From assembly GCA_903925275.1 (NCBI GenBank), contig CAIYES010000445.1, positions 1 to 37,346 on the forward strand: a stretch of 37,346 nt of DNA, read 5' to 3'. The first letter of the stretch is position 1. Each line of letters opens with the position of its first letter. Positions 1 to 19,138 of this stretch are shown in pieces. The position numbers and the translations under genes are program-made. This DNA is from an uncultured Bacteroidales bacterium (GTDB lineage: Bacteria; Bacteroidota; Bacteroidia; Bacteroidales; FEN-979). The notes beneath the pieces were generated by a model. It ran no database searches, was not told where the DNA came from, and saw only the letters and a list, made by a program, of their open reading frames with translations.

Positions 1-534
1 CCAGTTACTTTTAGTATGGTTAGGAAATATAACATGTTTGACACACTATCTATCAATGATTGTTTGAACCAAAACAAAACTTATATTTCAAACTTTGAAT
101 ACGGTAAATATCCCTATCCCTCTGTTGAATGGAATTCATTAGATAACTGGATATCCGGAGATCATTATATTGGGATTAGAAAAAAAATTAAGAACATAAA
201 TTATCTTGGATGGGTAAAAGTCGAAGTATTGAACTATTATGAAATAATAATAAAAGAATATGCCCTAAATATAAATTTATTAAATATAAACCAGTATAAG
301 AAACCATCTATTTTTCTTTTCCCAAACCCTGCAACTGACAGATTGACTATAGACTGTGCAAATAAACTGAATCTAAAATTGCAGATTTGCAACATTATCG
401 GAGATTGTGTTTTTCAAAGCGATTTGACTTCTGGGAAGAACGAGCTCGATATTAGTCATTTGTCTTCCGGTATTTACATTATTCGATTAACTGGTGTTGA
501 CGGTCTATTTCAGCAGAAATTAATAAAGAATTAA
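1..534 (+). CDS. C-terminal part of a T9SS-secreted protein (5' end outside window)
   Basis: The frame is open from base 1, so the true start lies upstream and only about 177 residues are visible. The last ~75 residues form a Por secretion system (type A) sorting domain: a FPNPATDRLTI-type opening at about 315-350, a central LQICNIIGDCVF-like strand, then an LSSGIYIIRL strand and a basic C-terminus ending LIKN. In Bacteroidota this tail directs proteins through the type IX secretion system to the cell surface or outside. The preceding part contains a GWVKVEV-like strand of the kind seen just before sorting tails in extracellular beta-rich proteins. No catalytic domain is visible. The base composition is markedly more AT-rich than most of the window. 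Confidence 0.8.
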   Translation, partial: PVTFSMVRKYNMFDTLSINDCLNQNKTYISNFEYGKYPYPSVEWNSLDNWISGDHYIGIRKKIKNINYLGWVKVEVLNYYEIIIKEYALNINLLNINQYKKPSIFLFPNPATDRLTIDCANKLNLKLQICNIIGDCVFQSDLTSGKNELDISHLSSGIYIIRLTGVDGLFQQKLIKN

Positions 535-969
535 TTTTAAAAGTTTTATAAAGCTGGCACCCCAAATGCGGGAAACAACGGGAGCAAACATAAACCGAAC
601 TTACCAACTGAACAACAAAAAGAAAACCCAAACCAGGTAACATCCGTACTATGCGGGCCGGCAGTATTTTTAACGTTCTCTGATGGAATAAATCTTATGT
701 TGCATCACCTTACTTTAAAAAAATAGCAAGATAAAAAATTAGGATATGACAGTCATAAATTTATTAGCATCATCACGAGGACTGAAAGGAAATGAAGCCA
801 ATATATCCTTGGCGCAAGAAATTTCTATTTCAAACAACAAAGTGGCCATAAAAGAGCTGATTGAAAATTTGTATAAAAAAAACAAGAATATCCAAAGCGA
901 TTAGATAAATCATTGAAACAAATAAATAAAATTTAAAGAGTATTACATTTCAAGTTAATACAAAAACAA
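535..969. other. AT-rich non-coding stretch with a gene remnant
   Basis: This 435-base gap between the T9SS tail gene and the C39-like lipoprotein gene holds only a 52-codon gene fragment (746-904, listed separately). I see no tRNA, clear hairpin terminator or repeat. A near-match to the Bacteroidota -7 element (TACATTTC, 944-951) lies just before the lipoprotein start but lacks the final G and a well-spaced TTG. Confidence 0.5.
746..904 (+). pseudogene. Truncated N-terminus of a HEAT-repeat-like protein
   Basis: A 52-codon open frame begins MTVINLLASS and ends KKNKNIQSD before TAG. From memory this matches the beginning of a Bacteroidota family of HEAT-repeat-like proteins, which normally open with a short N-terminal helix, an ALAKEIA-like segment, an AVKELxxxL helix and then IQSDCIKVLYE. 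Here the frame stops exactly after QSD, where the family continues for roughly another 150 or more residues. I therefore read it as a remnant of a deleted or interrupted gene. It could still be expressed as a small peptide. The family assignment rests on recall and is moderately certain; the short frame itself is directly visible. Confidence 0.45.
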
Positions 970-1625: not shown

Positions 1626-3140
1626 TCACCATTTGAAAATGTCCATTTTTTTCAATGGTCTGCGTTTTTCCTCCCATTTAAAATTTTTAAGTTTTCGCTC
1701 ATTCTGCGGCAAATCTTTTTCAGGATAAAGATGCTGGTCGGGCTTTTCGATGTAGGTGATACTTTTGATCTCGTTTTTGTCAAGAAAAATCAACATGTCG
1801 CTTGATACAGCCACGTTGATTCCGATCAGACTTTTATCCTCTTCCCTGACATAATATATGGTCTGGGCGTTTCCAATGACATTGATCTTATACAATTCGT
1901 TGTTGCGGAATTTAGCCAGAACATTTCTTCCTTTTACCTGGTTGAAACTGTTTGTATCATCTTTTGACACAATGAAGGCGGAATTGAACATTTTCAGCGA
2001 ATCGGCCTCGCCGTTGCGCATGATGAGTTTGATCGAATCGGCCGAAAGCTGATTCTGTTCCGACCACATTACCGGGTCATGATACATCGTCATGGTGGAA
2101 TCGCTGCTTAAATAGGCAAGCGAATCACACATCCCCTGCATATCGGGGCGGAAAAATTTAACCTTAAAGTAACAAAAAACAGCTCGGATATGCTGGAGGG
2201 TGTCGAAAGTGGCACGAACGGTATCGGAATGCATGAAGAGGGAGTCTTTTTTATCAACCATGATGGCCATTGCACTGTCGGTCATATAGGCATACCCTTC
2301 TTTCCGATGCATCTCTCCGTAATTACCCAACAGCAGGATGTTTTGTTCGGTATCGATAAGCTGTGCTTTACGGAATACCTGACCAAATCCATTGGTATAT
2401 TCGTAATAGATACTATCTCCGGTAAGGAAGGTTTTCTCATGGTAAATCCGGGCACGTTCACGGAAACGGGCAACATCGAGATGTGTATTGTACCAGCCGT
2501 TTTCGCAATAAATCGAATCCTGTTTGTCTTTGCTGATAATGTGTGTAGGGCCGAAAAAGAAGGCTGTTTCTGTTACCGTATTGTACATCAGGGTATCTGA
2601 ATTCATATTGTAATCAGGGTTGATCATCAATACCTTCTCTTTAAAGAAAAATTCCTTTTTATCAGTATAATAATACCCGTGATGGCTGACTAAGATATTC
2701 TTATCATTAACTATTTTTCCCCAGCAATCATATTGAGCAATCTGGGTGTTGCGGTTATAAACCAGCGTGTCGGTGGTCAGGGTGGTTTGGTTGTCGATCA
2801 GCCTGACATTGCTGTTTGCGTGGGCTATTTTCGTATTTCCGTCGTACTTCAGCGAATCGCTGTAAAGATTCAAGGTGTCGCTGAGTTTTATCCGGACATT
2901 GCCATACGCGATCACCTTATTTTCGGCTTCATTTACATAGGCGCTGTCGCAATACAGAAAGGCGCTGTCATGATTCATCACCACATTTCCCAGTATCCTC
3001 GGCCCAAACTCGTAAATATTTTTATTGAACTCCCAGTGATCTCCCGAATACAGAATCTTTGTCTTCTCCTGATCCTGGGGGAATGCGGTAATATTCAGTA
3101 CAACGGGAATAAGAAAAAGAAACCTGAGGATTCGCTTCAT
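1626..3140 (-). CDS. OstA/LptA-like LPS transport protein
   Basis: The product is 504 residues when started at the ATG whose codon ends at 3140. This gives a clean signal peptide (MKRILRFLFLIPVVLNITAF then PQDQ). The frame runs 21 codons further upstream, but a -7 promoter element lies inside that stretch, so the shorter start is preferred. The body has repeating beta-strands of the OstA type (YGNVRIKLSDTLNLYSDSL, DTLVYNRNTQIAQYDCWG, SDTLMYNTVTETAFFFG), as in LptA and the N-terminal part of LptD. Such proteins form a beta-jellyroll bridge that carries lipopolysaccharide across the periplasm. It is longer than proteobacterial LptA (~185 residues), as is usual for the Bacteroidota version. It is divergent from gatE. 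Confidence 0.8.
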   Translation of the reverse strand: MKRILRFLFLIPVVLNITAFPQDQEKTKILYSGDHWEFNKNIYEFGPRILGNVVMNHDSAFLYCDSAYVNEAENKVIAYGNVRIKLSDTLNLYSDSLKYDGNTKIAHANSNVRLIDNQTTLTTDTLVYNRNTQIAQYDCWGKIVNDKNILVSHHGYYYTDKKEFFFKEKVLMINPDYNMNSDTLMYNTVTETAFFFGPTHIISKDKQDSIYCENGWYNTHLDVARFRERARIYHEKTFLTGDSIYYEYTNGFGQVFRKAQLIDTEQNILLLGNYGEMHRKEGYAYMTDSAMAIMVDKKDSLFMHSDTVRATFDTLQHIRAVFCYFKVKFFRPDMQGMCDSLAYLSSDSTMTMYHDPVMWSEQNQLSADSIKLIMRNGEADSLKMFNSAFIVSKDDTNSFNQVKGRNVLAKFRNNELYKINVIGNAQTIYYVREEDKSLIGINVAVSSDMLIFLDKNEIKSITYIEKPDQHLYPEKDLPQNERKLKNFKWEEKRRPLKKMDIFKW

Positions 3141-3158
3141 GGGATTGAAATTGCGGAG

Positions 3159-3186
3159 CAAAGATACTAAAGTCAATGTTACCAAA
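3159..3186 (-). promoter_or_regulatory. Promoter candidate for the OstA-like gene
   Basis: On the minus strand a TATCTTTG -7 element (3166-3159) matches the Bacteroidota consensus TAnnTTTG, and TTTG at 3186-3183 can serve as the -33 box, with a slightly short 16-base gap. It lies 18 bases before the ATG ending at 3140 and supports that start over the longer frame. Confidence 0.5.
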
Positions 3187-3224
3187 AGTAATGAACATTT
3201 CATTCAGGATATCCACAAAATGGC

Positions 3225-3232
3225 TAATTTTG
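3225..3232 (+). promoter_or_regulatory. -7 promoter element for gatE
   Basis: TAATTTTG matches TAnnTTTG exactly and lies 28 bases before the gatE ATG. No convincing -33 TTG box is seen at the usual distance. It faces away from the OstA-like promoter, so this short region probably fires in both directions. Confidence 0.45.
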
Positions 3233-3260
3233 ATGACTTTTAACTATTTCTGCTGACACA

Positions 3261-5222
3261 ATGAAACAACATTTCGACCCCAGACGCAACCATGCTGAAA
3301 CAGAGCAAAAAATCGGTTACATACCACGTAAAAAAGCCACCCAGGCTGATTATGACCGCATCGGATTCATGTCGGGACTGGAAGTTCACCAACAGTTAAA
3401 AACCAAAGAGAAGCTCTTCTGCCATTGTCCTGCCGGGATTTTTCAGAAATCAGATGAATACGATGCCGAATTGATCCGCCATATGCGGCCTACCCTGAGT
3501 GAACTTGGCGAATACGATGGGACTGCGCTGATGGAGTTCAGAACCCGGAAAAATATCATTTACCGCATAAAAAATGAAACTGCCTGTACCTATGATGTGG
3601 ATGATACACCTCCATTTCCTTTAAACCGTGAGGCTCTTTCTCAGGCCATTGATATCTCATTGCTCTCAAAGCTCAAAGTAGTGGGTGAAGTGCACATCAC
3701 CCGCAAGCAATATCTTGATGGCTCAATCCCGACCGGATTTCAGCGTACCGCAATCATTGGGATTGAGGGGGAAATCCAACTGAAAAATAAAATAGTCCGG
3801 TTGATCCAACTCAGCCTGGAGGAAGATTCCTGCCGCGAAGTATCCGACATCGGTCATGTACGCATTTACCGCACCGACCGTCTTGGAATGCCCCTCATTG
3901 AAACCGTAACCTATCCTGAATTTAAAAACCCGGATGAGGTAAAAGAGGGCGCTGATTACATTCGCTTTCTGAATCGCAGCACGGGTAAAGTGCGTAATGG
4001 GATCGGCTCAACACGGGCCGACGTAAATGTAAGCTGTAAAGGCGGAACCCGCGTGGAAATCAAGGGAGTAGCACATACCGGCTGGATGCCCGAACTTACG
4101 CACAATGAATGTTATCGTCAGTGGTCGCTGCTGGCGATAAAAGACTTGCTTCTAAAAAAAGTTAAAGACCATGCCGATTGGAAAATTCAATCGAGAGAGG
4201 TCAAGTCCAAGGATTTTAAACTGGAAAACCTGGGTGTTCCAAAATATTCAATGGCCAAGGTTTACATTGTTAATCTGCCACAATTCAGAGGTATTCTGTC
4301 CCACTTCACACAGCCGGGTAAGATGTTTGCCGATGATCTGTCCGACCGGCTGAAAGTCATTGCCTGTATCGAAAAACCCAACATGGTTCATTCCGAGATG
4401 TTTGAGGATGCAGTAGGTGAAAAAGTATGGACAAAAGTCCGATCCTTACTGGGCAGCCAGGAGGAGGATGCTCAGATCATTTTCTGGGGTCCGGACGACG
4501 ATATTAAAACCGGCCTCGAAACGATTGAAGAACGTTGCCGGATGGCATTCAACGGGGTGCCAAACGAAACACGGAAGTCGTTTGAAGATGGCACTACCAT
4601 TTTCGAGCGCGTGTTACCCGGAGCCGACCGGATGTACCCCGATACCGACTCTGCTCCTATCCCGCTTGAAGATTCCGCGATCGATGAGGCCAGGGAAAGG
4701 CTTCCAAAACTTGTTTCGGAGCGCATTTTGCAGTTGATTGAATGGCATGTCCCGGAGGACACCTTTACCTACATCTTTAAAAACAACCTGGTTCCATTGA
4801 TTGAACGGGCGCAGACAGAATTAAATGTGCCTGCAAGATTTACCGGATCACTGCTGGCGCACACATTGAAGCATATCCAGGGTCAATACCCCGCACTTCC
4901 TGATTTTTCCAATGAAAACATCTTTGATTTGCTGAAGTACCTTGTCGACAGGAAACTGGATCTTGCCATTGCCAGAAAAATGTTGCTCCATCAGTACCAG
5001 CATCCCAAGATGGATTTCGATTCTATTCTGATCACCCTCAATTTTAAGGAACTTCCAAAAGAAGAGATCCTTGGAAAAATTCCTTTCCTGATTAAAAAAT
5101 ACAAGGAGATCAGGACTTCACCCGATAATTCGGCTGGAAAACGCTGGGTGATGGGCAACCTGAGCAGAATTGCCATGGGAAATATTTCCCTCAGGGAACT
5201 CAGTGACGGAATCAGATTTTAA
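3261..5222 (+). CDS. gatE: Glu-tRNA(Gln) amidotransferase subunit E (archaeal type)
   Basis: The 653-residue protein matches archaeal-type GatE, the tRNA-binding and kinase subunit of the GatDE heterotetramer, which converts Glu-tRNA(Gln) to Gln-tRNA(Gln). GatB/GatE cradle signatures are clear: GLEVHQQL at 39-46, LFCHCP near 52-57, RPTLSELGEYDG at 76-87, YLDGSIPTGFQRT at 151-163, LSLEEDSCRE at 184-193 and STRADVNVS with RVEIKGV at 250-270. The middle (~280-430) fits the AspRS-like insert that separates GatE from GatB, and the C-terminal ~150 residues fit the helical and YqeY-like tail domains. The length is normal for GatE (about 620-650), whereas GatB is about 480. There is an N-terminal extension of ~35 residues. 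gatD follows 81 bases downstream. Codon usage looks like the neighbours, so any transfer is not recent. Confidence 0.92.
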   Translation: MKQHFDPRRNHAETEQKIGYIPRKKATQADYDRIGFMSGLEVHQQLKTKEKLFCHCPAGIFQKSDEYDAELIRHMRPTLSELGEYDGTALMEFRTRKNIIYRIKNETACTYDVDDTPPFPLNREALSQAIDISLLSKLKVVGEVHITRKQYLDGSIPTGFQRTAIIGIEGEIQLKNKIVRLIQLSLEEDSCREVSDIGHVRIYRTDRLGMPLIETVTYPEFKNPDEVKEGADYIRFLNRSTGKVRNGIGSTRADVNVSCKGGTRVEIKGVAHTGWMPELTHNECYRQWSLLAIKDLLLKKVKDHADWKIQSREVKSKDFKLENLGVPKYSMAKVYIVNLPQFRGILSHFTQPGKMFADDLSDRLKVIACIEKPNMVHSEMFEDAVGEKVWTKVRSLLGSQEEDAQIIFWGPDDDIKTGLETIEERCRMAFNGVPNETRKSFEDGTTIFERVLPGADRMYPDTDSAPIPLEDSAIDEARERLPKLVSERILQLIEWHVPEDTFTYIFKNNLVPLIERAQTELNVPARFTGSLLAHTLKHIQGQYPALPDFSNENIFDLLKYLVDRKLDLAIARKMLLHQYQHPKMDFDSILITLNFKELPKEEILGKIPFLIKKYKEIRTSPDNSAGKRWVMGNLSRIAMGNISLRELSDGIRF

Positions 5223-5274
5223 ATTTTCGATTTGCACTTTTAAAAGTAACACCAAACCCATTATTTCATTTTTT

Positions 5275-5298
5275 CACCATTTCACCATTTCACTATTT
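5275..5298. repeat. Three copies of an 8-bp tandem repeat (reverse orientation)
   Basis: CACCATTT, CACCATTT and CACTATTT run head to tail. This is the reverse complement of the GAAATGGT-type unit found behind gatD and the LptD-like gene. It fills part of the gatE-gatD spacer just upstream of the gatD ATG, where no Shine-Dalgarno site is visible. Confidence 0.75.
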
Positions 5299-5303
5299 AA
5301 CTT

Positions 5304-6689
5304 ATGGCCGAAGATATTTTCCAGGGATACAAAGGACGGGCACTCGAAGTATTGCAAAATTTTAATGCCAGGGTTTGGGCTAAAGTCCGGATCGATAGCC
5401 GCAGAGGCATTTTTGAAGGCACCATTCTGCCCCGTGCTGAAAACACCGATGACAAGCACATCGTCATGAAATTTTTCACCGGTTACAACATCGGGGTGGA
5501 TATCGACGGTATTACCAATATTGAAGAACTCGGTTATAAAAAAGCTGTTTATAAAATACCGGAGAAGGAATTTCCCTATTCCAAAGATAAACCAAACGTG
5601 AAGCTCCTGGGTACCGGCGGCACCATTGCTTCGCGGCTCGATTACCGCACCGGCGCAGTGATTCCGGCCTTCTCACCAGGTGAGTTGTACGGCGCCGTGC
5701 CTGAATTGGCTGATATCTGCAACCTTACCACGGAAAAGCTCTTCGCGGTTTTCAGTGAAAACATGGGTCCTGATCAGTATAAAAAACTGGCTGTTGCCAT
5801 CGGCAATGAGATAGAAAAGGGTATCGACGGCATCATCATCGGCCATGGTACCGATACCCTGCATTACACCTCCGCTGCCCTGACCTTTATGGTGCAGAAT
5901 TCACCGGTTCCCATTGTGCTGGTTGGTTCACAGCGTTCATCCGACCGCCCAAGTTCCGACGCCGCCCTGAACCTGATGCATGCAGCCACTGCTGCCGCTC
6001 ATGGCGACATTGCCGAAGTGATGGTGTGTATGTTCGGGCCTACTTCTGATGAATATGGGTTTCTGCATAAAGGTACACGGGTAAGAAAGATGCATTCTTC
6101 CTACCGGTCTACTTTCCGTACCATCGGGGATACCCCTTTGGCCACCGTTACCCGGCAGGGGGTTGTTCCCATCAAACAGGATTACCACCGCAGACGCACC
6201 GACCGGAATGTAACGATCATGCCCTATTATGAAGAGAAGGTCACGATGCTCTATTACTACACCAACATGCAACCTGATGTGATTGATGCATTGGTTGATG
6301 CGGGGTACAAGGGAATTATCATCATCGGTACAGGGTTAGGCCATGTCAACAAGCCAATTTACCCGGCCATTGAACGCGCTATTGCCAAAGGTGTGGCTAT
6401 TTATATGACTGTTCAGACACTTTGGGGATATGTCCACATGTTTGTTTACGATACCGGCCGCGATCTGATGGCCAAAGGGATCATCCCGGCCGAGAATATG
6501 CTTCCTGAAACGGCTTTTATCAAACTCAGCTGGGCATTGGGACAAACCAGCGACCTTGCAAAGGTGAAAGAGATCATGCTGACCCCTATCAACGACGAAA
6601 TCACCAAGCGTGAACCGTACAACGGCTATCTGATCTATCAGGGCGGAGTGCCGGAGGTGGAAGAGTTTATAAGGAAGTTCCACAAATAA
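5304..6689 (+). CDS. gatD: Glu-tRNA(Gln) amidotransferase subunit D (archaeal type)
   Basis: The 461-residue product matches GatD, the asparaginase-like glutaminase of GatDE, which releases ammonia from glutamine for the GatE site. Residues ~5-85 form the N-terminal Tudor-like domain that type I asparaginases lack. The catalytic residues are all present: Thr107 in TGGTIASR, Thr183-Asp184 in GHGTDTLHYTS and Lys262 in GTRVRKMHSS. The segment VGSQRSSDRPSSDAA is characteristic of GatD rather than of AnsA/AnsB. With gatE immediately upstream, the assignment is secure. The order here is E then D. The stop codon runs straight into a ten-copy 8-bp repeat. Confidence 0.93.
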   Translation: MAEDIFQGYKGRALEVLQNFNARVWAKVRIDSRRGIFEGTILPRAENTDDKHIVMKFFTGYNIGVDIDGITNIEELGYKKAVYKIPEKEFPYSKDKPNVKLLGTGGTIASRLDYRTGAVIPAFSPGELYGAVPELADICNLTTEKLFAVFSENMGPDQYKKLAVAIGNEIEKGIDGIIIGHGTDTLHYTSAALTFMVQNSPVPIVLVGSQRSSDRPSSDAALNLMHAATAAAHGDIAEVMVCMFGPTSDEYGFLHKGTRVRKMHSSYRSTFRTIGDTPLATVTRQGVVPIKQDYHRRRTDRNVTIMPYYEEKVTMLYYYTNMQPDVIDALVDAGYKGIIIIGTGLGHVNKPIYPAIERAIAKGVAIYMTVQTLWGYVHMFVYDTGRDLMAKGIIPAENMLPETAFIKLSWALGQTSDLAKVKEIMLTPINDEITKREPYNGYLIYQGGVPEVEEFIRKFHK

Positions 6690-6768
6690 AATGGTGAAAT
6701 GGTGAAATGGTGAAATAGTGAAATGGTGAAATGTTGAAATGGTGAAATGGTGAAATAGTGGAATGGTG
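6689..6768. repeat. Ten-copy 8-bp tandem repeat after gatD
   Basis: Ten units in strict 8-bp register: AAATGGTG with variants AAATAGTG (copies 4 and 9), AAATGTTG (copy 6) and GAATGGTG (copy 10). The array begins on the last base of the gatD TAA stop. No hairpin is evident. It shares its unit with the arrays at 5275, 14948 and 26277. Confidence 0.9.
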
Positions 6769-6885
6769 AGCTATTTTGCTATTCACTTTTGATAAAAACC
6801 ACGACAGTCAAGCTGTTTCTGAATTCCGGAAGGTATTTTGTAAAGGCATGGATGCATGATCATTTTTCATGTGTGAATCTTTGCC

Positions 6886-6893
6886 TATCTTTG
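6886..6893 (+). promoter_or_regulatory. -7 promoter element for the M16 peptidase gene
   Basis: TATCTTTG matches TAnnTTTG exactly, 52 bases before the ATG. A second similar stretch (AATCTTTGCC) lies just upstream. The -33 box is not obvious. Confidence 0.4.
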
Positions 6894-6945
6894 CGAACAA
6901 ATTCATTTTCCCGGTTTATTTTCCAATCCAATTAATCAAATCCTT

Positions 6946-9858
6946 ATGAAAAAGATGATTGCGCGATTTACATTTATTTCGCTTTTGTATGTGCTGGCCG
7001 TCAGCACAATGGCACAGAATGTGGCCAAATATGATACAGTTCCCGGCGACCCGCTTAAAGCCAGGATTTATACATTGAAAAACGGATTAAAAGTGTACCT
7101 CACGGTGTACAAGGATGCCCCGCGCATTCAAACGGCCATTGCGGTACGTACCGGAAGCAAGAACGACCCATCCGACAACACAGGGATGTCGCATTATCTG
7201 GAACACATGATGTTCAAAGGCTCCGATGAATTTGGCACCAAAGATTTTACCAAAGAAAAGGTTTTTCTCGATCAGATCGAATATAAGTTCGAAGTGTACA
7301 AAAAAACAACAGATACGCTACAGCGGAAAAAAATATATCACGAAATCGACAGTTTGTCGGGGGTGGCGTCAACATACGCCATTGCCAATGAATATGATAA
7401 ACTGCTGTCGGTGATCGGCGCAAAGGGTACCAATGCTTTTACATCATTCGAAGAGACGGTTTACATCAATGATATCCCGTCGAACAAAATCAGTCAATGG
7501 CTTAAGATTGAAAAAGAACGCTTCCAGGATCCCATCTTCCGGCTGTTCCATACCGAATTGGAAACCGTATATGAAGAGAAGAATATGAGCCTTGATAATG
7601 ACGACGACAAAGTTTTTGAGGATTTATTCTCCGGATTATTCCCAACTAACACCTACGGAACCCAAACAACCATCGGAACCGTTGAACATCTGAAAAACCC
7701 GTCGCTAACCTCCCTGAGAAATTATTTTGCCGCTCGTTATGTCCCCAACAACATGGCCATTGTGCTTTCTGGCGATTTTAACCCCGACGAAGTGATCAAC
7801 CTGGTTGATGCCACCTTTGGTCAACTGGTCTCAAAACCGGTTACTGCCTATGTCCCGGCCATTGAGGCGCCTATCACCCAGCCCATTGTGAAGGAAGTGG
7901 TTGGTCCTGATGCCGAATCGGTGACCATCGGTTACCGGTTGGGTGGTGCTGCGACCAAAGATGCCGACCTGCTGACACTTTGCAACATGGTATTAAGTAA
8001 CAGTAACGCCGGTTTGATGGATCTGAACCTGAACCAGGCTCAAAAAGTGCTGGAAGCCAGTGCATTTTCCTATGTCCTGAAAGATTATTCAGTCAATATT
8101 TTTTCAGGCAAAGCAAAAGAGGGACAATCGCTTGAAGAGGTAAAAGACCTCATCATGGCACAGATCGAACTGGTCAGAAAAGGTGAATTTCCCGATTGGC
8201 TCCTCCCCGCCATCATCAATGATTTAAGATTGGCTGAGATAAAGAAGTATGAAGGCAATTTTGGCCGGACCATGGATCTGGTGGATGAATTCGTAAAAGA
8301 ACTTCCTCACGCCGAAGTCGTGAAAAATATAAACCGGCTTTCAAAGATCACCAAGAAAGACATCATTGATTTTGCCAATAAAAATTACGGCAACAACTAT
8401 GTGATCGTATACAAACGCAATGGACAGGCCAAAGAAACAAAAAAGGTTGTGAAACCCCAGATCACTCCGGTAACCATGAACCGCGATGAAGAGTCAGCCT
8501 TTCTGAAAAATATCGTTGCGGAACCCAGCCAGGAGATCAAGCCTGTGTTCATCGACTATTCCAAGGACATTAAACAGTTTAGTTTCAAAAACGACATTCC
8601 CGTTCTGTATAAGGCGAATACTGAAAATAAAACTTTTTCGCTCTACTATTTTTTTGAGATGGGGACAAACTCAAACCGTGAACTGGGTATTGCACTCGAT
8701 TACCTGAAATATTTAGGGACATCGAAGTATTCACCAAAGGAGATCCAGGAAGAGTTTTACAAAATGGGCTGTTCTTTCAATGTAAACAGTTCTGATGTGG
8801 AAGTTTGGATTTCGCTGAATGGATTGAGTGAATTTATGCCCAGTGCAATGTCGCTTTTTGAAAAGTTGCTTGCTGATGCCCAACCCAATGACGCAGCGCT
8901 GAAGAACCTCGTGGCCGACATCAAGAAACGTCGCAACGACGATAAACTCTCAAAGCAAAGCATACTTTGGGCAGCCATGTACAATTATGGCGTGTATGGC
9001 GAAAAATCGCCTTATACCAATGTTTTATCGTCTCAGGAACTCGAAACCCTCCAAGCTGGAGATCTTATTAACCTGATCAAAGGGTTGACTGGTTTTCAAC
9101 ATAAAATTCTGTATTACGGTCCCGAAAACGTCACGAACCTTACTGCAGTCCTTAACAAGGAACATCACACTCCTGCTGTGCTGAAACCGGTTCCTGAAGC
9201 GAAAAAATTCGAACAGAAGGCAACAGACGCATCGAAAGTTTATACCGTGGATTACGACATGAAGCAGGCAGAAATCATCATGCTGTCGAAGTCGGATGGT
9301 TACAACAAAGAAATGGTTCCGGTCGTCCGTCTTTTCAACGAATATTTCGGAGGTAGCATGAATTCGATCGTTTTTCAGGAAATCCGCGAATCGAAAGGAC
9401 TTGCTTACAGCGCATATGCCGGATATCGCACGCCGGTTCAGCCTTATCAGAATTATTATCTGTTCTCTTACATCGGAACACAGATGGATAAATTGCCCGA
9501 GGCCATGAAGGCTATGATGGGGCTTTTCAACAATATGCCCGAAAGCGAAAAAGCCTTTAATTCATCCAAAGAGGCGATCATCAATAAAATACGTACCGAA
9601 CGCATAACCAAAGCACAAGTGTTGTTTAATTACCTGAATGCTCGTAAGTTCGGTCTTACTTACGACATCCGTAAAGATGTTTATAACAAGGTGCCAAAGA
9701 TGAAATTTGCTGATCTGAAAACCTTCCAGGAAACATATATCAAGTCGAAAAACTTCACCATCATGGTGTTGGGGAAAAAATCCGAAATGGATAGAAATAC
9801 CCTTTCATCCTATGGTCCGGTGCAGGATCTGGATTTAAAAACTGTTTTCGGGTACTAA
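6946..9858 (+). CDS. Secreted M16 (insulinase/pitrilysin family) zinc metallopeptidase
   Basis: The product is 970 residues with a signal peptide (MKKMIARF, a hydrophobic stretch, then cleavage near STMAQ). The inverted zinc motif HxxEH is present as His83-Tyr-Leu-Glu86-His87, in GMSHYLEHMMF. The third zinc ligand should be a Glu in ELETVYEEK (about 203-211), further away than in minimal M16 enzymes because of an insert around residues 105-150. The second half (~550-960) is a degenerate M16 repeat carrying a QEIRESKGLAYSAYAGY segment, so both halves of the peptidase clamshell are in one chain. It probably degrades peptides in the periplasm or at the outer membrane. It is a single gene after gatD, with its own promoter, and it converges on the MCE gene. 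Confidence 0.9.
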   Translation: MKKMIARFTFISLLYVLAVSTMAQNVAKYDTVPGDPLKARIYTLKNGLKVYLTVYKDAPRIQTAIAVRTGSKNDPSDNTGMSHYLEHMMFKGSDEFGTKDFTKEKVFLDQIEYKFEVYKKTTDTLQRKKIYHEIDSLSGVASTYAIANEYDKLLSVIGAKGTNAFTSFEETVYINDIPSNKISQWLKIEKERFQDPIFRLFHTELETVYEEKNMSLDNDDDKVFEDLFSGLFPTNTYGTQTTIGTVEHLKNPSLTSLRNYFAARYVPNNMAIVLSGDFNPDEVINLVDATFGQLVSKPVTAYVPAIEAPITQPIVKEVVGPDAESVTIGYRLGGAATKDADLLTLCNMVLSNSNAGLMDLNLNQAQKVLEASAFSYVLKDYSVNIFSGKAKEGQSLEEVKDLIMAQIELVRKGEFPDWLLPAIINDLRLAEIKKYEGNFGRTMDLVDEFVKELPHAEVVKNINRLSKITKKDIIDFANKNYGNNYVIVYKRNGQAKETKKVVKPQITPVTMNRDEESAFLKNIVAEPSQEIKPVFIDYSKDIKQFSFKNDIPVLYKANTENKTFSLYYFFEMGTNSNRELGIALDYLKYLGTSKYSPKEIQEEFYKMGCSFNVNSSDVEVWISLNGLSEFMPSAMSLFEKLLADAQPNDAALKNLVADIKKRRNDDKLSKQSILWAAMYNYGVYGEKSPYTNVLSSQELETLQAGDLINLIKGLTGFQHKILYYGPENVTNLTAVLNKEHHTPAVLKPVPEAKKFEQKATDASKVYTVDYDMKQAEIIMLSKSDGYNKEMVPVVRLFNEYFGGSMNSIVFQEIRESKGLAYSAYAGYRTPVQPYQNYYLFSYIGTQMDKLPEAMKAMMGLFNNMPESEKAFNSSKEAIINKIRTERITKAQVLFNYLNARKFGLTYDIRKDVYNKVPKMKFADLKTFQETYIKSKNFTIMVLGKKSEMDRNTLSSYGPVQDLDLKTVFGY

Positions 9859-9888
9859 CCCGTCCTCCTTGATAGTATTAAGCCCTTC

Positions 9889-9927
9889 GACCTCCTTCCC
9901 CCTGCCCCAGGCTGGGGAAAGGAGGTC
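9889..9927. terminator. Hairpin between converging genes, probable bidirectional terminator
   Basis: GACCTCCTT (9889-9897) pairs with AAGGAGGTC (9919-9927), and the stem extends inward with CCCC/GGGG across a one-base bulge. The short AT-rich run after it on the plus strand (AATTATTTAAAA) is compatible with termination of the M16 transcript. The element sits exactly in the gap between convergent stops. Confidence 0.55.
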
Positions 9928-9933
9928 AATTAT

Positions 9934-10881
9934 TTAAAAAACTGACACTTTCACATATTTTGAAGGATTCTTCTTGATATCCTCAAGCAGAAGGTTCAGA
10001 TCGCGGGCCGCTTTTTCAACCTCTTTATAAAGTTGATCATTGTTAAGGAGTTGTCCAACAGAACCCTCTCCTTTGTTGATCTTCAGCAATACCGCATCAA
10101 GATCACCTATAGCTTTATTCATCTGGGATATGGTGTAAGGTATGCGGGCCTTTGCAAGTGAATCGCTAAGATTCGAAAAATTATTGAATATATTGGATAT
10201 CTTCCCGTTGCTTTGCTGCAGGTTGCTGCTGATTGACTCAACGTTAGTGATAATTTTACTAAGGTTCGATCGTTGCAAAATCATTAGCGTATCGAGGTTT
10301 TGGGTGGTATGCGCAATATTGGAAAGGGTTTGCTTGACGTGTTCAATGGCTTCGACAAGGTTGTCGCGTGTATTTTTATTCAAAACCTGTTGAATAATCG
10401 TTGCCACCGTATCGATGGAACTGATAAGGTTTTCAGCCTTGATTTTCAGCGGAAGAAGTTGTTTGTTTACCTCCTGTCCAAGCGTTGCTTCGGTCAACGA
10501 AATCAATGTATCACCATTTTTTGCCATTTCGGTTGAATTCCCCGGGATGATCTCCACCTCAGGCGAGCCGAGCAAACTGGAACTGAAAATCCGGGCGCTT
10601 GAATTTTTTGCGATGGGATAATCACCAAGAATATAAAGTTCTACGATAATATTTTTAGGATTTTTTTCATCGAAATACAGTTTTTTAACCTGTCCCACCT
10701 TCAACCCTTTAATTGAGATGGGATTAGCTGCTACCAGGCCATTTACCTGATCATATACTGCATAGAAGGTCCGGCTTGTTTTCAGCAATTCAAGTCCCTT
10801 CAGGAACATCAGTCCCCATATGAGGATTGCGGTAGCTACAACAAATACGACCCCGACTTTTATATCTTTCCTGATTTTCAC
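9934..10881 (-). CDS. MCE/MlaD family lipid-transport protein
   Basis: About 315 residues from a GTG codon ending at 10881 (VKIRKDIKVGVV...), which fits the usual family opening. The open frame extends six codons further to a TTG at 10899. A single transmembrane segment (~residues 9-28, VGVVFVVATAILIWGLMFL) precedes the MCE domain (~32-115), with NGLVAANPISIKGLKVGQV and SPEVEIIPG as recognisable strands. The C-terminal ~180 residues are a long helical, coiled-coil-like tail. MlaD-type proteins form rings that move phospholipids between the membranes with an MlaE/MlaF ABC transporter, which is not in the window. The gene follows the amidase closely and is probably co-transcribed with it. Confidence 0.85.
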   Translation of the reverse strand: MKIRKDIKVGVVFVVATAILIWGLMFLKGLELLKTSRTFYAVYDQVNGLVAANPISIKGLKVGQVKKLYFDEKNPKNIIVELYILGDYPIAKNSSARIFSSSLLGSPEVEIIPGNSTEMAKNGDTLISLTEATLGQEVNKQLLPLKIKAENLISSIDTVATIIQQVLNKNTRDNLVEAIEHVKQTLSNIAHTTQNLDTLMILQRSNLSKIITNVESISSNLQQSNGKISNIFNNFSNLSDSLAKARIPYTISQMNKAIGDLDAVLLKINKGEGSVGQLLNNDQLYKEVEKAARDLNLLLEDIKKNPSKYVKVSVF

Positions 10882-10914
10882 AACTACTGTTTTATGCAAA
10901 ATTAAAAATAAAAT

Positions 10915-12102
10915 TCATTTCTTATTCAAGAGCCTTTTTGCCTCATCCTGCGGGATGCGTGACCCATTCCTGAATATGACGATGAACGCATCAGCCGCCC
11001 CCTTACGCCATGCTTCATCAAGCAGTTTTTCCGCTGCACGCAAAGTTGATTCATCGCCAATTGTATATTTGTACATGCCGTTATGCCGGTAGATCTGTGG
11101 ATTGCTGAATTTGACCAAACGAGAGTCGTTGGCTTCAAGTTTGTCGATTGAAGCGGCAATCTGCACCTTATATGATAATTCTGAACCTGATGTTGGTTTT
11201 ACTGCAGATTTTACCTCTCTTTCAGGTTGTTTAATCACCGACGTGGTATCGACTACCTTAACATGTCCATCCGCAATGGTCTGGGGAGCAATTGAAGCAG
11301 GTTGTGCTGTATCCGTGTGTTGATTGGCCGGATTGGCAACGCTTTCCCTGAAATTTTTCAACGCCCTGCAAATAGCCGATACAATGTGATCCTGCCCCTG
11401 GTCGGACATTAAATAGAATTCCTCTTCCGGATTGCTGATATAACCGGTTTCAACCAAAACGCTCGGCATTGTTGTCTTATAAAGAACCATAAACCCAGCC
11501 TGCCTGACCCCATGGATCGATCCTTTCTGATGTTTCTCAAATTGTTCCTGGATGGCTGCAGCGAAATCGGTACTTTGGTCGAGATTTGAATTCTGAAAAA
11601 GAGAAAAAATGATGTACGATTCATCGGCATTGGGATCAAAACCATTGTAGGTCGACTGATAGTCGGATTCAAGGAGGATGGATGCATTTTCAACCTTTGC
11701 AATGTTGAGGTTCGCCTGCGATTTATCCAACCCCATTACATAGGTTTCAGCTCCCTTGCGTGCATGGTTTTTATTGGCATTGCAATGAATGCAGATGAAC
11801 ATATCTGCCTTGTTTTCATTGGCAATTTCAGCCCGGCGATACAATTCAACGAAGAAATCCTTGTCACGGGTATAAATCACACGAACATCCTTCATGGAGC
11901 GTTGAATCTGACTCCCAAGTTTAAGGGCTATGGCCAAATTGAGATTCTTCTCTCTGGCATGTTGCCCGATGGCACCGGGATCATGGCCTCCATGACCGGC
12001 ATCAATGACAATAGTTTGAATTGCACGATGTCGCTGTGCAACCAGGCTTAATGGCTGGATCATGATGAATATAACCGGCCAAAGCCATAAGTATCGCAGC
12101 AT
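10915..12102 (-). CDS. N-acetylmuramoyl-L-alanine amidase (Amidase_3) with C-terminal SPOR-like region
   Basis: 395 residues from the ATG ending at 12102, which gives a good signal peptide (MLRYLWLWPVIFIMIQPLSLVAQ). The open frame continues 45 codons upstream without a secretion signal. Zinc ligands are His37 in IDAGHGGHD, Glu51 in AREKNLNL and His106 in CIHCNAN, and the catalytic Glu218 lies in LVETGYISN. This is the AmiA/B/C-type catalytic core that cleaves the peptide side chain from muramic acid in cell separation. Residues ~305-395 (YKVQIAASIDKLEAND ... MYKYTIGDES) resemble a SPOR domain, which binds denuded septal glycan. It is divergent from the LptD-like gene and precedes the MCE gene. 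Confidence 0.9.
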   Translation of the reverse strand: MLRYLWLWPVIFIMIQPLSLVAQRHRAIQTIVIDAGHGGHDPGAIGQHAREKNLNLAIALKLGSQIQRSMKDVRVIYTRDKDFFVELYRRAEIANENKADMFICIHCNANKNHARKGAETYVMGLDKSQANLNIAKVENASILLESDYQSTYNGFDPNADESYIIFSLFQNSNLDQSTDFAAAIQEQFEKHQKGSIHGVRQAGFMVLYKTTMPSVLVETGYISNPEEEFYLMSDQGQDHIVSAICRALKNFRESVANPANQHTDTAQPASIAPQTIADGHVKVVDTTSVIKQPEREVKSAVKPTSGSELSYKVQIAASIDKLEANDSRLVKFSNPQIYRHNGMYKYTIGDESTLRAAEKLLDEAWRKGAADAFIVIFRNGSRIPQDEAKRLLNKK

Positions 12103-12144
12103 CCGTGGTGTTTGATTGTTAAAGTATCTTAAAAAACCAGCAGT

Positions 12145-12167
12145 CTCAAAAATTTTGAGTAGTTTTG
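12145..12167. promoter_or_regulatory. 15-bp palindrome and -7-like element in the amidase/LptD divergent region
   Basis: CTCAAAAATTTTGAG (12145-12159) is a perfect palindrome around a central base. It abuts TAGTTTTG (12160-12167), which matches TAnnTTTG on the plus strand towards the LptD-like gene, about 94 bases before its start. The palindrome could be an operator or chance in AT-rich DNA. Confidence 0.3.
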
Positions 12168-12223
12168 AAACCTGAAGAATAACGGTCTTCAACGCCTTTT
12201 TATTCTGAATTTTTACACATAAA

Positions 12224-12231
12224 CAAAGATA
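12224..12231 (-). promoter_or_regulatory. -7 promoter element candidate for the amidase gene
   Basis: Read on the minus strand this is TATCTTTG, an exact TAnnTTTG match. It would give a leader of roughly 115 bases to the ATG at 12102. No clear -33 box is present. Confidence 0.35.
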
Positions 12232-12261
12232 GAACATTAACCTCAGAATTCAGAAAAGAAG

Positions 12262-14949
12262 TTGTTAACGAAAATATTAACACGGTCTTTCATATACACT
12301 CTTTTTTTGATCCTTTTTTTCCTGCAAATCACGTATGTGGTCGCTCAGGATACGATTCGGCAAAAGAAAGGAGACAGTGCCTTAATGCCTGAAGGTCAGA
12401 TTAAAGTTATCCGGAAAGATTCAATCTCCATTGATTCCATTCGCCACGATTCCATCAATGTTGACACAACGCTTGCAGATACCCTCCGCAACAAACCACT
12501 GAAAAAAAACAGATTGGATGCCGTTGTCGATTATGCCGCCAAGGATTCCATCCGGTTTGAGATTAAAGGGCAAAAAGTCTTTCTTTACCAGGATGCAGTT
12601 ATCAAGTACACGAATATCAGCCTGAAAGCTGCATACGTCGAGATCAATTTTCCAAAAAATCTTGTATACGCAACCGGGGTGAAAGATACGACCGGAAAGT
12701 TGGTTGGTACGCCTGAATTCCAGGAAGGTTCACAGACCTTTAAGTCAAAAATCATCAATTACAATTATACTACCAAAAGGGGATTCATCAACACGGTGTT
12801 TACCAAGCAGGATGACAGTTACCTGCATGGCACCATCGTGAAGAAGATGGAAAATAATGTAACCTATATGAAATCGGGTTCATATACAACCTGCGATCTG
12901 GAAGAGAATCCGCACTTTGCCTTTAATTTCAGTAAAGGAAAGGTAATCCCTGGAAAACGGATCATTACCGGCCCGGCCTATATGGATATTGCAGGTGTGG
13001 CAACTCCCCTGTTTATCCCTTTTGGTTTTTTCCCAAACCGTACGGGACAACGTAACGGAATAATCATTCCAACTTACAACGAATCACCAAACCGGGGGTT
13101 TTATTTTGAAAATATGGGCTATTACTGGGGGATAAGCCAGTACATGGACCTGACTTTGCTGGCCGATATTTACACCCGTGGAAGCTGGGCTGTCAAACCA
13201 GCCCTGAGGTACAACAAACGATATCATTTCAACGGTAATTTCAATTTCAGTTATGCCGTGAACCTGATCGGGGAGGCAGGTACACCCGATTATCAAAAAA
13301 AGACAGATTTCCAGGTGAGGTGGGTGCACAACCAGGATGCGAAAGCCCGCCCCCACAGCACATTTTCAGCAAATGTGAACATTGTCAGCAATAGCTTTAA
13401 TAAAAACACTATTACCACAAGCGCACAAACTTACCTCTCAAATACATTCCAGTCGAGCATCAACTATGCTACCAACTTTGCCGGAAAATACTATTTGAAC
13501 CTTAATTTCAACCACAGTCAGAACACACTTAATAAAACCATCAACATCACACTGCCGCAACTCTCATTTGCAGTAAATCAGTTTTATCCGTTCCGCAAAC
13601 AAAACCATGCCGGAAAGATACGATGGTATGAACAAATCAGTATGAAGTATAACCTTGACATGGAAAACCGGTATAATACTGTTGATTCCAACTTCATGAA
13701 AGGGAAATGGGCGGATTCCATGCAAAATGGCATGCGGCATTCCTTCCCTATCAACGGCACATTTCGCATCCTGAAGTTTATCAACTGGTCCAATTCATTC
13801 AACATCAACGACAGGATGTACCTTAAAACCATCCGGAAATATTATCAGTCCTATACCTATATCAATGGTTCGGATACAATTTTACCCGGTTATAAAACCA
13901 GGAATGTTTCCGGGTTCGTAAATGAATTTGATTTTTCGCTCTCCACTTCCATGAGCACTACCATTTACGGCATGTACCAGTTTAAAAGCAAGCTGATCAA
14001 GGCTATCCGGCATATGGTAAAACCCTCGGTGAGCTTTAGCTATGTTCCCAATTGGGGTGCGGAGGGATTGGGTTATTACCGGCCAATCGCATATGATACA
14101 AACACTAATAACCCTGGTGTTTATTCGATTTTTCAGAATACGGTCTATGGCGGACCACCAGGGCAAAAATCCGGGACGGTCTCCTTTACCATCAGCAACA
14201 ATCTGGAGATGAAAGTAAGGAACCGAAAAGACACCATTACAGGAATAAAAAAAATCCCGTTGATCGATGATCTGACCATCGGCTGTTCCTATGATGTTGC
14301 CCGCGATTCGGTGAACTGGTCGCCGATCAACCTCAGTGGCCGAACCACCATCATAAAAGGACTGGCTATACAATATCGCAGTTCCTGGGACATGTATGCC
14401 CTTGATTCGCTCAGAAGACGCACCAATACTACTGAATGGAAAGCCCATCACAGGTTGCTCCGGCTCGATAATACATCATGGAGCACGGGATTCAACTACA
14501 GTTTGTCGTCAGACAAGGTAAAGAAGAAAACCACCACCAAAGGAACAACCATGGAGCGACAGGATGTTGTCGATTACTACGACTATTATGTGGATTTCGA
14601 TATTCCGTGGAGTTTCTCGCTGAGTTATACCTTCTCCTACAACAAAGCCTATAACTACACTTCAAAAAAACGGGTAGCAGTGATCAACCAAACCCTGGGG
14701 TTTAGCGGACAACTTAACATTACTCCCAAATGGAAAATCGGAGTGCAAACCGGATGGGATTTTGTAAACAAACAACTATCGTACACATCCATTGATGTTT
14801 ACCGTGACCTCCATTGCTGGGAAATGCGTTTCGGCTGGGTTCCGAAAGGAGGTCAGCAAAGCTGGAATTTTTCAATCAACGTAAAGGCTCCGATGTTGCA
14901 GGATCTGAAGTTGAATAAGAAAAAAGATTTCAGGGACTATGCAAATTAA
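12262..14949 (+). CDS. lptD: LptD-like outer-membrane LPS assembly protein
   Basis: 895 residues. Only a TTG codon is available as start in this region; it is preceded by a purine-rich GAAAAGAAG and followed by a good signal peptide (ILTRSFIYTLFLILFFLQITYVVAQ). Residues ~75-200 carry OstA-like strands (DYAAKDSIRFEIKGQKVFLYQDAVIKY), and the remainder is a long beta-barrel with many alternating aromatic strands (GNFNFSYAVNLIGEAG, YYLNLNFNHSQNTLN, WSFSLSYTFSYNKAYN). This corresponds to the Bacteroidota form of LptD, the outer-membrane translocon that inserts LPS into the outer leaflet. An LptE partner is not visible. RidA follows 85 bases downstream. An 8-bp repeat array begins in the stop codon. 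Confidence 0.82.
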   Translation: MLTKILTRSFIYTLFLILFFLQITYVVAQDTIRQKKGDSALMPEGQIKVIRKDSISIDSIRHDSINVDTTLADTLRNKPLKKNRLDAVVDYAAKDSIRFEIKGQKVFLYQDAVIKYTNISLKAAYVEINFPKNLVYATGVKDTTGKLVGTPEFQEGSQTFKSKIINYNYTTKRGFINTVFTKQDDSYLHGTIVKKMENNVTYMKSGSYTTCDLEENPHFAFNFSKGKVIPGKRIITGPAYMDIAGVATPLFIPFGFFPNRTGQRNGIIIPTYNESPNRGFYFENMGYYWGISQYMDLTLLADIYTRGSWAVKPALRYNKRYHFNGNFNFSYAVNLIGEAGTPDYQKKTDFQVRWVHNQDAKARPHSTFSANVNIVSNSFNKNTITTSAQTYLSNTFQSSINYATNFAGKYYLNLNFNHSQNTLNKTINITLPQLSFAVNQFYPFRKQNHAGKIRWYEQISMKYNLDMENRYNTVDSNFMKGKWADSMQNGMRHSFPINGTFRILKFINWSNSFNINDRMYLKTIRKYYQSYTYINGSDTILPGYKTRNVSGFVNEFDFSLSTSMSTTIYGMYQFKSKLIKAIRHMVKPSVSFSYVPNWGAEGLGYYRPIAYDTNTNNPGVYSIFQNTVYGGPPGQKSGTVSFTISNNLEMKVRNRKDTITGIKKIPLIDDLTIGCSYDVARDSVNWSPINLSGRTTIIKGLAIQYRSSWDMYALDSLRRRTNTTEWKAHHRLLRLDNTSWSTGFNYSLSSDKVKKKTTTKGTTMERQDVVDYYDYYVDFDIPWSFSLSYTFSYNKAYNYTSKKRVAVINQTLGFSGQLNITPKWKIGVQTGWDFVNKQLSYTSIDVYRDLHCWEMRFGWVPKGGQQSWNFSINVKAPMLQDLKLNKKKDFRDYAN

Positions 14950-15504: not shown

Positions 15505-16704
15505 TTAATGTCCCGTTAGAACATAGGGTGCCCATATAGTCGGCATGGCAGTTCCTGGGCAATGGATCATCTGTAATTTCACTTCCCGCAGGGCTTCAGA
15601 GTAGCTTTTTCCCGATAGCCACTGGCGGTAGAATGAAACCATAAAGTCGCCGGCCAGGTTGTCATTCACACTCCAGAGTGTTGACACGATATTCTTTGCG
15701 CCTGCCATAAAAAAAACACATGGCAACGAGCTAACAGAGTCACCCGATCTCTGTAATTCAATTCCGGAGGAACAGGCATTTAAAACGAGCAGATCGGCTT
15801 GCAGCTTCAATTTGGTGATTTCATCAATTGATAGAATCCCGTCATCAGACACTTTTTTTTTCCCGGAAGAATCATACCCCCAGAAAAGGAAGCCTTCGCG
15901 TGTGGGATCATTTACATCATGGATATAATGTGTTGCCAGGTGAACAATTTTTCCCCGGCAAGCGACCGATTTAAAGTATTCTTTTTCAGAATATTGTTCA
16001 CTGACGAGCCAGTTGGATAATCCCTTTTGATGAAATAATGAACCTATTTCAGCAATTTCAATTTTTGAACCGGGCAGAGCACTCAGCCCCGGGTAATTTG
16101 AAAATACGGGTGAAAAGCCCATAAATGCAAATTGGTAGTCATCAGGTGAATCAGCATGTTCATTCTGTTTCAATTCTGCCAGTTTGGACCAGAATTCAGG
16201 AGAGCAATGGTAAACAACTTCATAATCATTTATCAGATAATGGATATTGCAAATATTATAAGGTGGTGAGGAGTTATCGTTCAAAACGAAAGCCTCAAAA
16301 GGGAGTCCCGCTAATCTAACATCCGGAATAATTATTAATCGCCTTTTTCCCATTAAAAAATCCTCAACTGGTTTAATTAAAAAAAGATAGAGTACCTGTC
16401 CGAGAATCGAAAATTCGTTTGGATCAGCCGATTTAAGTTTTTTCTGAAACGATTTCAAGGATACCCAGAACAAGGAATTCAGCGATTGGCTGGCAAATAA
16501 GGTTGAATCAACTGCAATTGCGTTTACCACAACGGATGAATCGGTGAGAAAATACTCCAGCATCACCTCATCCTGTTTCAGATTTTGCTGAACATTTTCA
16601 GAACCTTCCGGCAAATGGCCAGGTTGGGCTTGTGCAACTCCCTGGAGTACAAAGATTAATATTCCAGGCAACAAAAATGCTTTCCAAGAAATCAAAGGCC
16701 CCAT
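15505..16704 (-). CDS. Secreted CHAT-domain (caspase-like) protein
   Basis: 399 residues with an N-terminal signal peptide or anchor (ISWKAFLLPGILIFVLQGVAQAQ). Residues ~120-399 form a CHAT domain. The candidate catalytic dyad is His259 in HLATHYIHD and Cys311 in LVLNACSSG, a spacing of about 50 residues as in caspase-fold peptidases. Later motifs include FFMAGAKNIVSTLWSVND, YSEALREVKLQMI and the terminal WAPYVLTG. Unlike most CHAT proteins it has no long TPR array, only ~100 residues before the domain. It is the last gene of a tight operon behind an ECF sigma factor and a membrane anti-sigma-like protein (19-base gap), so a regulatory protease role is inferred. Its substrate is unknown. Confidence 0.85.
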   Translation of the reverse strand: MGPLISWKAFLLPGILIFVLQGVAQAQPGHLPEGSENVQQNLKQDEVMLEYFLTDSSVVVNAIAVDSTLFASQSLNSLFWVSLKSFQKKLKSADPNEFSILGQVLYLFLIKPVEDFLMGKRRLIIIPDVRLAGLPFEAFVLNDNSSPPYNICNIHYLINDYEVVYHCSPEFWSKLAELKQNEHADSPDDYQFAFMGFSPVFSNYPGLSALPGSKIEIAEIGSLFHQKGLSNWLVSEQYSEKEYFKSVACRGKIVHLATHYIHDVNDPTREGFLFWGYDSSGKKKVSDDGILSIDEITKLKLQADLLVLNACSSGIELQRSGDSVSSLPCVFFMAGAKNIVSTLWSVNDNLAGDFMVSFYRQWLSGKSYSEALREVKLQMIHCPGTAMPTIWAPYVLTGH

Positions 16705-16723
16705 AATTTCCGTATAAGAAATA

Positions 16724-18090: not shown

Positions 18091-18185
18091 ACATGTAATT
18101 CTATTGCTTAATCCGGCAGAATAATAAAAGTAAGGCTTATGTTAATAACTTTTTAATAACCATAAATAGCATGTCAAAAAACGGC

Positions 18186-18193
18186 CAAAATTA
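18186..18193 (-). promoter_or_regulatory. -7 element candidate for the sigma/CHAT operon
   Basis: Minus-strand TAATTTTG matches TAnnTTTG, about 95 bases before the sigma factor ATG. GTTTC lies some 20 bases further upstream in place of a TTTG -33 box, so the match is partial. Confidence 0.3.
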
Positions 18194-19097: not shown

Positions 19098-19138
19098 CTT
19101 TTTCTGCCAGTATACAAACAATTAATATTTCGAACAAT

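Follow-up and report, generated by a model that had tools for sequence, protein, structure and literature searches.

Introduction

What would a tRNA-dependent amidotransferase known from archaea do in a bacterium that can, by its gene content, charge its glutamine tRNAs directly? The question is raised by a 37,346-nucleotide stretch of DNA from an uncultured Bacteroidales bacterium (contig CAIYES010000445.1 of assembly GCA_903925275.1; the whole stretch is hereafter called the window), in which two adjoining genes, gatE and gatD, encode the two subunits of GatDE. The GatD subunit of this enzyme takes ammonia from glutamine or asparagine as amide donor; the GatE subunit activates the glutamate on Glu-tRNA(Gln) with ATP and amidates it. 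The overall reaction, as summarized in part of PMC9499178, is the conversion of Glu-tRNA(Gln) to Gln-tRNA(Gln), and the same part of that source places GatDE in archaea only; an excerpt of PMC8007984 narrows this to archaea missing asparaginyl-tRNA synthetase (AsnRS). A survey of 366 bacterial genomes makes no mention of GatDE in its accessible portion, where genomes lacking gatCAB, those of Bacteroidetes among them, are taken to have a defunct indirect route (PMC3927822).

Our best explanation, toward which we lean no more than evenly, is that the window carries a functional bacterial branch of GatDE, its activity being predicted from sequence, and that this enzyme would work on Glu-tRNA(Gln) beside glutaminyl-tRNA synthetase (GlnRS) as a second or corrective route. 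Below, handles in brackets are our own for genomes (G), contigs (C), loci (L) and families (f); G000 is the host.

The two proteins belong to the GatE and GatD families

Both genes are intact, with gatE first and gatD immediately following (Table 1), and their common strand and the spacer between them suggest that they are probably co-transcribed. In profile searches GatE scored 401 bits against TIGR00134, above the cut-off of 319.55, and GatD scored 497.5 bits against TIGR02153 (cut-off 324) and 502.4 bits against NF003217 (cut-off 310). The best score of GatE against the GatB models was 110 bits, with cut-offs of 314.8 and 338, which places it outside GatB. Pfam recognized Asparaginase, Asparaginase_C and GatD_N in GatD, all over their cut-offs (GatD_N at 47.2 bits, cut-off 25.7), and GatB_N in GatE, for which neither an insert nor a tail domain came up at E 0.001. 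The solved structures nearest to the window proteins are the GatE and GatD chains of 1zq1 and of 2d6f, the latter presumably being Methanothermobacter GatDE. Likewise, the top three fold matches of the AlphaFold model of GatE (47 bacterial sequences; mean predicted local distance difference test score, pLDDT, 82.9, some core loops having low confidence) are the GatE chains of 2d6f and 1zq1, with E-values from 1.6e-35 to 1.8e-33 against 4.5e-17 for GatB. Together with a GatE tree that sets GatB apart, the family scores and nearest structures bear out the initial annotation, made from the sequence of the window, in identifying the pair as GatDE and not as GatB or the asparaginases AnsA/AnsB.

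That annotation had also located the genes and the residues Thr107, Thr183, Asp184 and Lys262 of GatD correctly. These residues, whose catalytic roles we take as given, do not vary in the alignment, where all 48 bacterial GatD and both archaeal GatD have them. Across the bacterial and two archaeal rows GatE has 101 near-invariant positions, of which the cradle holds 91 and the insert at 319-440 the other 10. The cradle, AspRS-like insert and tail that had been recognized in GatE thus fare differently: the cradle is supported by its fold and its shared positions, whereas the insert and the helical and tail parts are there at lengths matching the archaeal ones, with good model confidence and no Pfam domain call, yet are much diverged in sequence (14-34% identity between bacterial groups).

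Table 1. Features of the window. Base positions are those of the window and residue positions those of GatE; the limits of the GatE parts were drawn by us on the alignment.
Feature	Position	Strand	Description
gatE	3261..5222	+	653 amino acids; intact open reading frame; TIGR00134, 2d6f_C/1zq1_C by sequence and by AlphaFold model fold
GatE cradle	residues ~30-318 and 441-474		
GatE AspRS-like insert	residues ~319-440		
GatE helical part	residues ~475-580		
GatE tail	residues ~581-653		
gatE/gatD spacer	5223..5303	.	81 bases; flanking genes on same strand
gatD	5304..6689	+	461 amino acids; intact open reading frame; GatD_N domain; amidase of the asparaginase type; catalytic Thr107, Thr183, Asp184, Lys262
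OstA-like gene	1626..3203	-	Divergent neighbour of gatE; Pfam OstA_2; context, not part of the enzyme
M16 peptidase gene	6946..9858	+	Downstream of gatD; Pfam M16 and M16_C; context
LptD gene	12262-14949		Pfam LptD_2

The host also encodes the direct route to Gln-tRNA

The question had been raised from the window whether the host lacks GlnRS or uses a non-discriminating GluRS, with the possibility that GatDE took the place of GlnRS as the sole route to Gln-tRNA(Gln). A lack of GlnRS is contradicted by the genome search: the host has an intact GlnRS of 567 residues (G000:C95:20794) that scores 744.7 bits against TIGR00440 (cut-off 425.8) and in which HIGH- and KMSKR-type motifs were read by eye. 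It also has one glutamyl-tRNA synthetase (GluRS), of the bacterial type (TIGR00464, 476 bits, cut-off 289.95), and an AsnRS over the cut-off. The GlnRS and GluRS genes are its two class Ic synthetase genes and lie about 2 kb apart on one contig, and since the same pair is linked within a few kb on one contig in close relatives such as G396, G399, G400, G401 and G403, the contig carrying it is not foreign to the host. No GatB was detected in the host, where the sole match to the GatB/GatE family, in a genome that is 94.9% complete, is the gatE of the window. Judged by its gene content, the host does not need GatDE for making Gln-tRNA.

The same holds for most carriers. Two or more synthetase matches are present in 47 of 52 genomes with gatE; of the other five, G251 shows a contig-end fragment only, G287 and G314 a single match of GluRS size each, and G397 and G404 no match. 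In the sample of the order, which has 295 genomes, GlnRS was found in 271, with 266 scoring above the cut-off. These comprise 113 of the 124 with gatE and 158 of the 171 without it, a split that was worked out from genome lists with four GlnRS-less genomes (G701, G703, G706, G738) identified by elimination; presence of gatE does not, therefore, go with loss of GlnRS. One gatE-bearing relative has its GlnRS catalytic domain split between two frames, through assembly error or real loss (G402:C57:176540-177468). GatB stands alongside gatE in 22 of 29 carriers of other classes and in only one of the 22 genomes from the contig scan.

Replacement of GlnRS by GatDE has the appeal that the indirect route requires just a non-discriminating GluRS and an amidotransferase, and it finds support in G287 and G314, two genomes of one family, each 99% complete, which have gatE, GatB, GluRS and AsnRS and no GlnRS match; 11 of the 124 carriers in the order sample are likewise without one. 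However, these two genomes hold GatB as well, so GatDE need not be the only route even there. With GlnRS and its motifs in the host and GlnRS in 113 of the 124 carriers, with a single bacterial GluRS, an AsnRS and bacterial-type tRNA-Gln (see below), replacement is refuted for the host unless its GlnRS is inactive, and we regard it as highly improbable. When the neighbours of the GatB gene were read by eye in G287 (L150, L246, L270) and G314 (L149, L247, L271), neither gatA nor gatC was recognized among them.

Alternatively, GatDE might make Asn-tRNA(Asn) from Asp-tRNA(Asn) in place of GatCAB. The missing GatB of the host fits this idea, as does its tRNA-Asn, which by eye has U1-A72. Against this, AsnRS scores above its cut-off in the host as well as in 60 of the 61 carriers tested (none shown in G602), and archaeal GatDE forms Gln-tRNA(Gln), as excerpts of PMC9499178 and PMC8007984 describe. 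We consider this possibility very unlikely.

Glutamine tRNAs and the tRNA-binding parts of GatE

Archaeal GatDE uses the A1:U72 pair of tRNA-Gln, according to part of PMC9499178, and tRNA-Gln with archaeal-type GatDE identity elements had been suggested as a check on the host. A search that scored 150 of 264 candidates found at least two tRNA-Gln genes there, UUG on contig C317 and CUG directly behind glnS, and both have U1-A72, not A1-U72, with A73. In this arrangement (G000:C95; L176, contig 16000-32000; L133) gltX lies about 2 kb beyond the tRNA, and coordinates indicate the same glnS-tRNA linkage in relatives such as G398, G400 and G403. A D-arm pattern, blind to any tRNA-Gln whose D stem is of the archaeal type, was searched for in 64 genomes (36 with gatE, 28 without); it matched 69 places in 47 genomes and none in the other 17, and after one place (L245) had been dropped for having no T arm, 68 tRNA-Gln were read. 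U1-A72 is found in 40 of 40 from 27 gatE-bearing genomes and in 27 of 28 from genomes without gatE, so that in the carriers' tRNA-Gln read the archaeal A1:U72 pair was not seen once. The sole A1-U72, of the archaeal type, belongs to a tRNA-Gln(UUG) at L208 in G037, a genome that is in the same class as the host and has no gatE. The A73 discriminator was rejected as an archaeal or GatDE mark: it occurs in 34 of 40 tRNA-Gln of carriers and also in 28 of 28 of genomes without gatE.

GatE differs from its archaeal counterparts most in the parts outside its core. Between the host's group and other classes identity is 60.6% in the cradle, 33.6% in the insert, 16.0% in the helical part and 14.1% in the tail; two archaeal GatE share 56.6% of the cradle, 61.5% of the insert and 36.6% of the helical part; and against the archaeal proteins the values are 39-40% for the cradle, 25-28% for the insert and 14-24% for the helical part, with 44-47% for GatD. 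Compared with the archaeal pair, the bacterial insert and helical part have therefore diverged more relative to the core, and we infer that the divergence of insert, helical part and tail reflects a change in the parts that bind tRNA.

These observations bear on the main rival to our explanation, namely that GatDE uses the same ATP and ammonia chemistry on another substrate, either another misacylated tRNA or a carboxylate that is not part of a tRNA. In its favour are the direct routes through GlnRS and AsnRS, the absence of A1:U72 from all 40 tRNA-Gln of carriers, and the low identity of helical part and tail alike between bacterial groups when set against that of the cradle. On the other hand, GatE keeps the predicted active-site positions of the cradle in common with archaea, the helical part also comes last of the four in conservation when the two archaeal GatE are compared, and no neighbouring gene that would point to another pathway is found across the phylum. 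We judge action on another substrate to be rather unlikely, while taking it more seriously than any other alternative.

gatE is widespread in the host's lineage and under purifying selection

The genome contig scan yielded 22 loci with GatE at 55-88% identity, their titles being mostly Bacteroidales or Bacteroidetes. Counted by TIGR00134 at E 1e-60, gatE is present in 30 of 395 genomes in a sample of the phylum (the host and 29 from other classes), in 124 of 295 in the order sample (two below the cut-off), and in 69 of 120 relatives, 66 of which score above the cut-off. All 19 sampled genomes of the genus have it, as do 40 of the 43 sampled in the family, where one contig-end fragment in the genus and one match elsewhere in the family fall below the cut-off. 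A few duplicates, having the same coordinates under two handles (G403/G419, G406/G522), are included in these counts. Among 14 named control genomes TIGR00134 matched only in four archaea. A group of Bacteroidota that includes many metagenome-assembled genomes thus commonly carries gatE, and the host is not a one-off.

Of the 52 loci examined, 48 have gatD downstream of gatE in the same orientation, and in 44 of those 48 it is the very next gene; at L024:4995-6950 two open reading frames stand between them. Three of the other four loci end just past gatE, and the fourth, in a Bacteroidales metagenome-assembled genome titled Tb.RUG.202 (L023:3399-5339), has GatE and no gatD within 5 kb downstream.

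A relic, or neutral left-over, of an older indirect pathway would explain why the enzyme coexists with a direct route and why gatE is missing from 171 of the 295 genomes of the order sample. Selection on gatE and gatD is, however, purifying: among close relatives the ratio of non-synonymous to synonymous substitution rates (dN/dS) is 0.012-0.041 in the comparisons that yielded a ratio, with dS of 1.4-2.6 near saturation and 4 of 12 comparisons fully saturated and without a ratio. In five relatives identity to the host is 97, 88, 80, 78 and 80% for GatD, 87, 80, 71, 68 and 69% for GlnRS, and 87, 74, 66, 65 and 64% for GatE, so that GatD is more conserved than GlnRS and GatE nearly as conserved. 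Given also the near-constant presence of gatE in genus and family and the invariant catalytic residues of GatD, we disfavour the idea of a relic and leave it only a slight chance.

Genomic context and origin of the pair

The host assembly consists of 574 contigs with 3.6% estimated contamination, figures that could admit archaeal contamination or misassembly of a metagenome bin. However, the bacterial OstA-like, M16 and LptD genes lie on the same 37 kb contig, the OstA neighbour adjoins gatE in 11 other loci, which in itself argues against misassembly, and gatE is present in genomes that consist of a single contig (G124, G132, G294, G667). Contamination is thus already refuted and we give it practically no weight, in line with the initial annotation, in which the flanking genes had been taken to speak against an archaeal misassembly. 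The GC (guanine-plus-cytosine) content is 46.6% for gatE and 49.6% for gatD, near that of neighbouring genes, and 43.2% for the window.

Six other loci likewise have a homologue of the M16 gene downstream of gatD. Relative to L004, L011 and L012, the block OstA-gatE-gatD-M16 is inverted with respect to the open reading frames at 9934-10899 and 10915-12237 and LptD (window 1626-14949). Beyond gatE-gatD itself, no neighbour is common across the phylum, OstA, M16 and LptD recurring within the host's group, and gene neighbourhood was rejected as a clue to function for this reason. In family f17 two neighbouring genes recur, which we read as putative PhoH-like and aldehyde dehydrogenase genes.

In a tree of 46 rows the 7 GatB, 3 archaeal GatE (support 100/99) and 36 bacterial GatE (99/96) separate. 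The host's group is one clade (100/100) that includes L172 from G156, a genome of another class, and the GatD of L172 is 80.7% identical to that of the host compared with about 57-71% for other loci of those classes. As both subunits of L172 are of the host-group type, the pair seems to have moved jointly within the phylum at least once. Whether it also crossed from archaea, as was initially proposed, is a different matter. The bacterial clade beside the three archaeal sequences fits an old transfer, and older shared inheritance fits equally; the tree has only three archaeal rows, came with warnings that long branches meet, and cannot separate the two. An archaeal origin of bacterial GatDE is accordingly plausible and unproven. 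Two scans of viral contigs for archaeal or viral relatives of GatE confirmed none. A plasmid search returned one archaeal GatE (Natrinema) among 16 matching records, none covering 80% of the query, and a phage search five records with weak matches of 23-32% identity that we take to be GatB. On the Natrinema thermotolerans plasmid CP031304.1 (L145) the GatE coding stretch is in two frames, with no listed gene, either through sequencing error or because the gene is broken.

A proposed second or corrective route to Gln-tRNA

Combining these data, we suggest that GatD of the window would supply ammonia from glutamine or asparagine, as the known enzyme does, and that GatE would activate the glutamate of Glu-tRNA(Gln) with ATP and amidate it to Gln-tRNA(Gln). 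Given the GlnRS of the host, GatDE probably acts on Glu-tRNA(Gln) that arises when GluRS misacylates tRNA-Gln, by error or leakiness, and it would be a second or corrective route beside GlnRS and not the sole one. The diverged insert, helical and tail parts of GatE may have become adapted to bacterial tRNA-Gln with U1-A72. More tentatively, and with somewhat less confidence than in a working enzyme beside GlnRS, we propose that corrective GatDE is a property of the whole lineage, in which it may repair Glu-tRNA(Gln) by amidation and not by hydrolysis, or may provide a second, condition-dependent source of Gln-tRNA.

Several points weigh against a second or corrective route. We infer both the source of Glu-tRNA(Gln) and the activity of GatDE. 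At 450.5 bits GatE falls 5.5 bits below the NF003107 cut-off of 456. The absence of A1:U72 from the carriers' tRNA-Gln implies either that the specificity of GatDE has changed or that the substrate is another one. The 171 genomes of the order sample without a match suggest that gatE is dispensable in many relatives. Finally, host GluRS has Arg at the position of Thermus thermophilus Arg358, which we take to be the mark of a discriminating enzyme. This residue is not diagnostic here: each of the 23 GluRS loci in the alignment to the T. thermophilus enzyme has Arg there (some loci occurring twice), including those of G287 and G314, and it was rejected as a test of discrimination, since the specificity of GluRS cannot be read from a residue that genomes without a GlnRS match share.

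If corrective GatDE exists, it would set how often CAA and CAG codons receive glutamate, and it would go against the rule that confines GatDE to archaea and keeps it out of genomes with GlnRS. Bacteroidota with GatDE and GlnRS, and mostly without GatB (all but one among the host and 22 relatives), depart from a division into archaeal GatDE and bacterial GlnRS or GatCAB. They are relevant to the question whether GatDE was already present in the last common ancestor or passed from one domain to the other, and they are natural hosts for comparing both routes to Gln-tRNA. In titles and abstract beginnings of the open-access literature, subscription papers and preprints being outside this scope, we found no description of bacterial GatDE; as curated family models recognize these genes, they should be visible in annotation.

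Comparison with known systems

GatD shares its amidase fold and catalytic set with the type I/II L-asparaginases AnsA and AnsB, and the Pfam Asparaginase domain is found in the GatD of the window as well. The window protein differs in having a GatD_N domain, in adjoining gatE, and in scoring 390 and 381 bits to the archaeal GatD chains versus at most 133 to asparaginase chains.

Archaeal GatDE (2d6f; 1zq1 from Pyrococcus abyssi) is alike in having both subunits, the catalytic residues of GatD, the cradle core of GatE and the layout of insert and helical and tail parts. In contrast to it, the window comes from a host with GlnRS and with U1-A72 in its tRNA-Gln, bacterial GatE forms a clade of its own, and its insert and helical part are diverged.

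The closest parallel in bacteria for the coexistence of routes is GatCAB beside both GlnRS and AsnRS in Bdellovibrio, Deinococcus and Thermus, as described in a portion of PMC4206432, where an amidotransferase is likewise kept beside both direct synthetases. In that account GatCAB is linked to Asn-tRNA(Asn) and asparagine supply, whereas the host has GatDE and AsnRS and no GatB was found in it. These bacteria thus offer a precedent, of another type, for an amidotransferase that is kept beside GlnRS.

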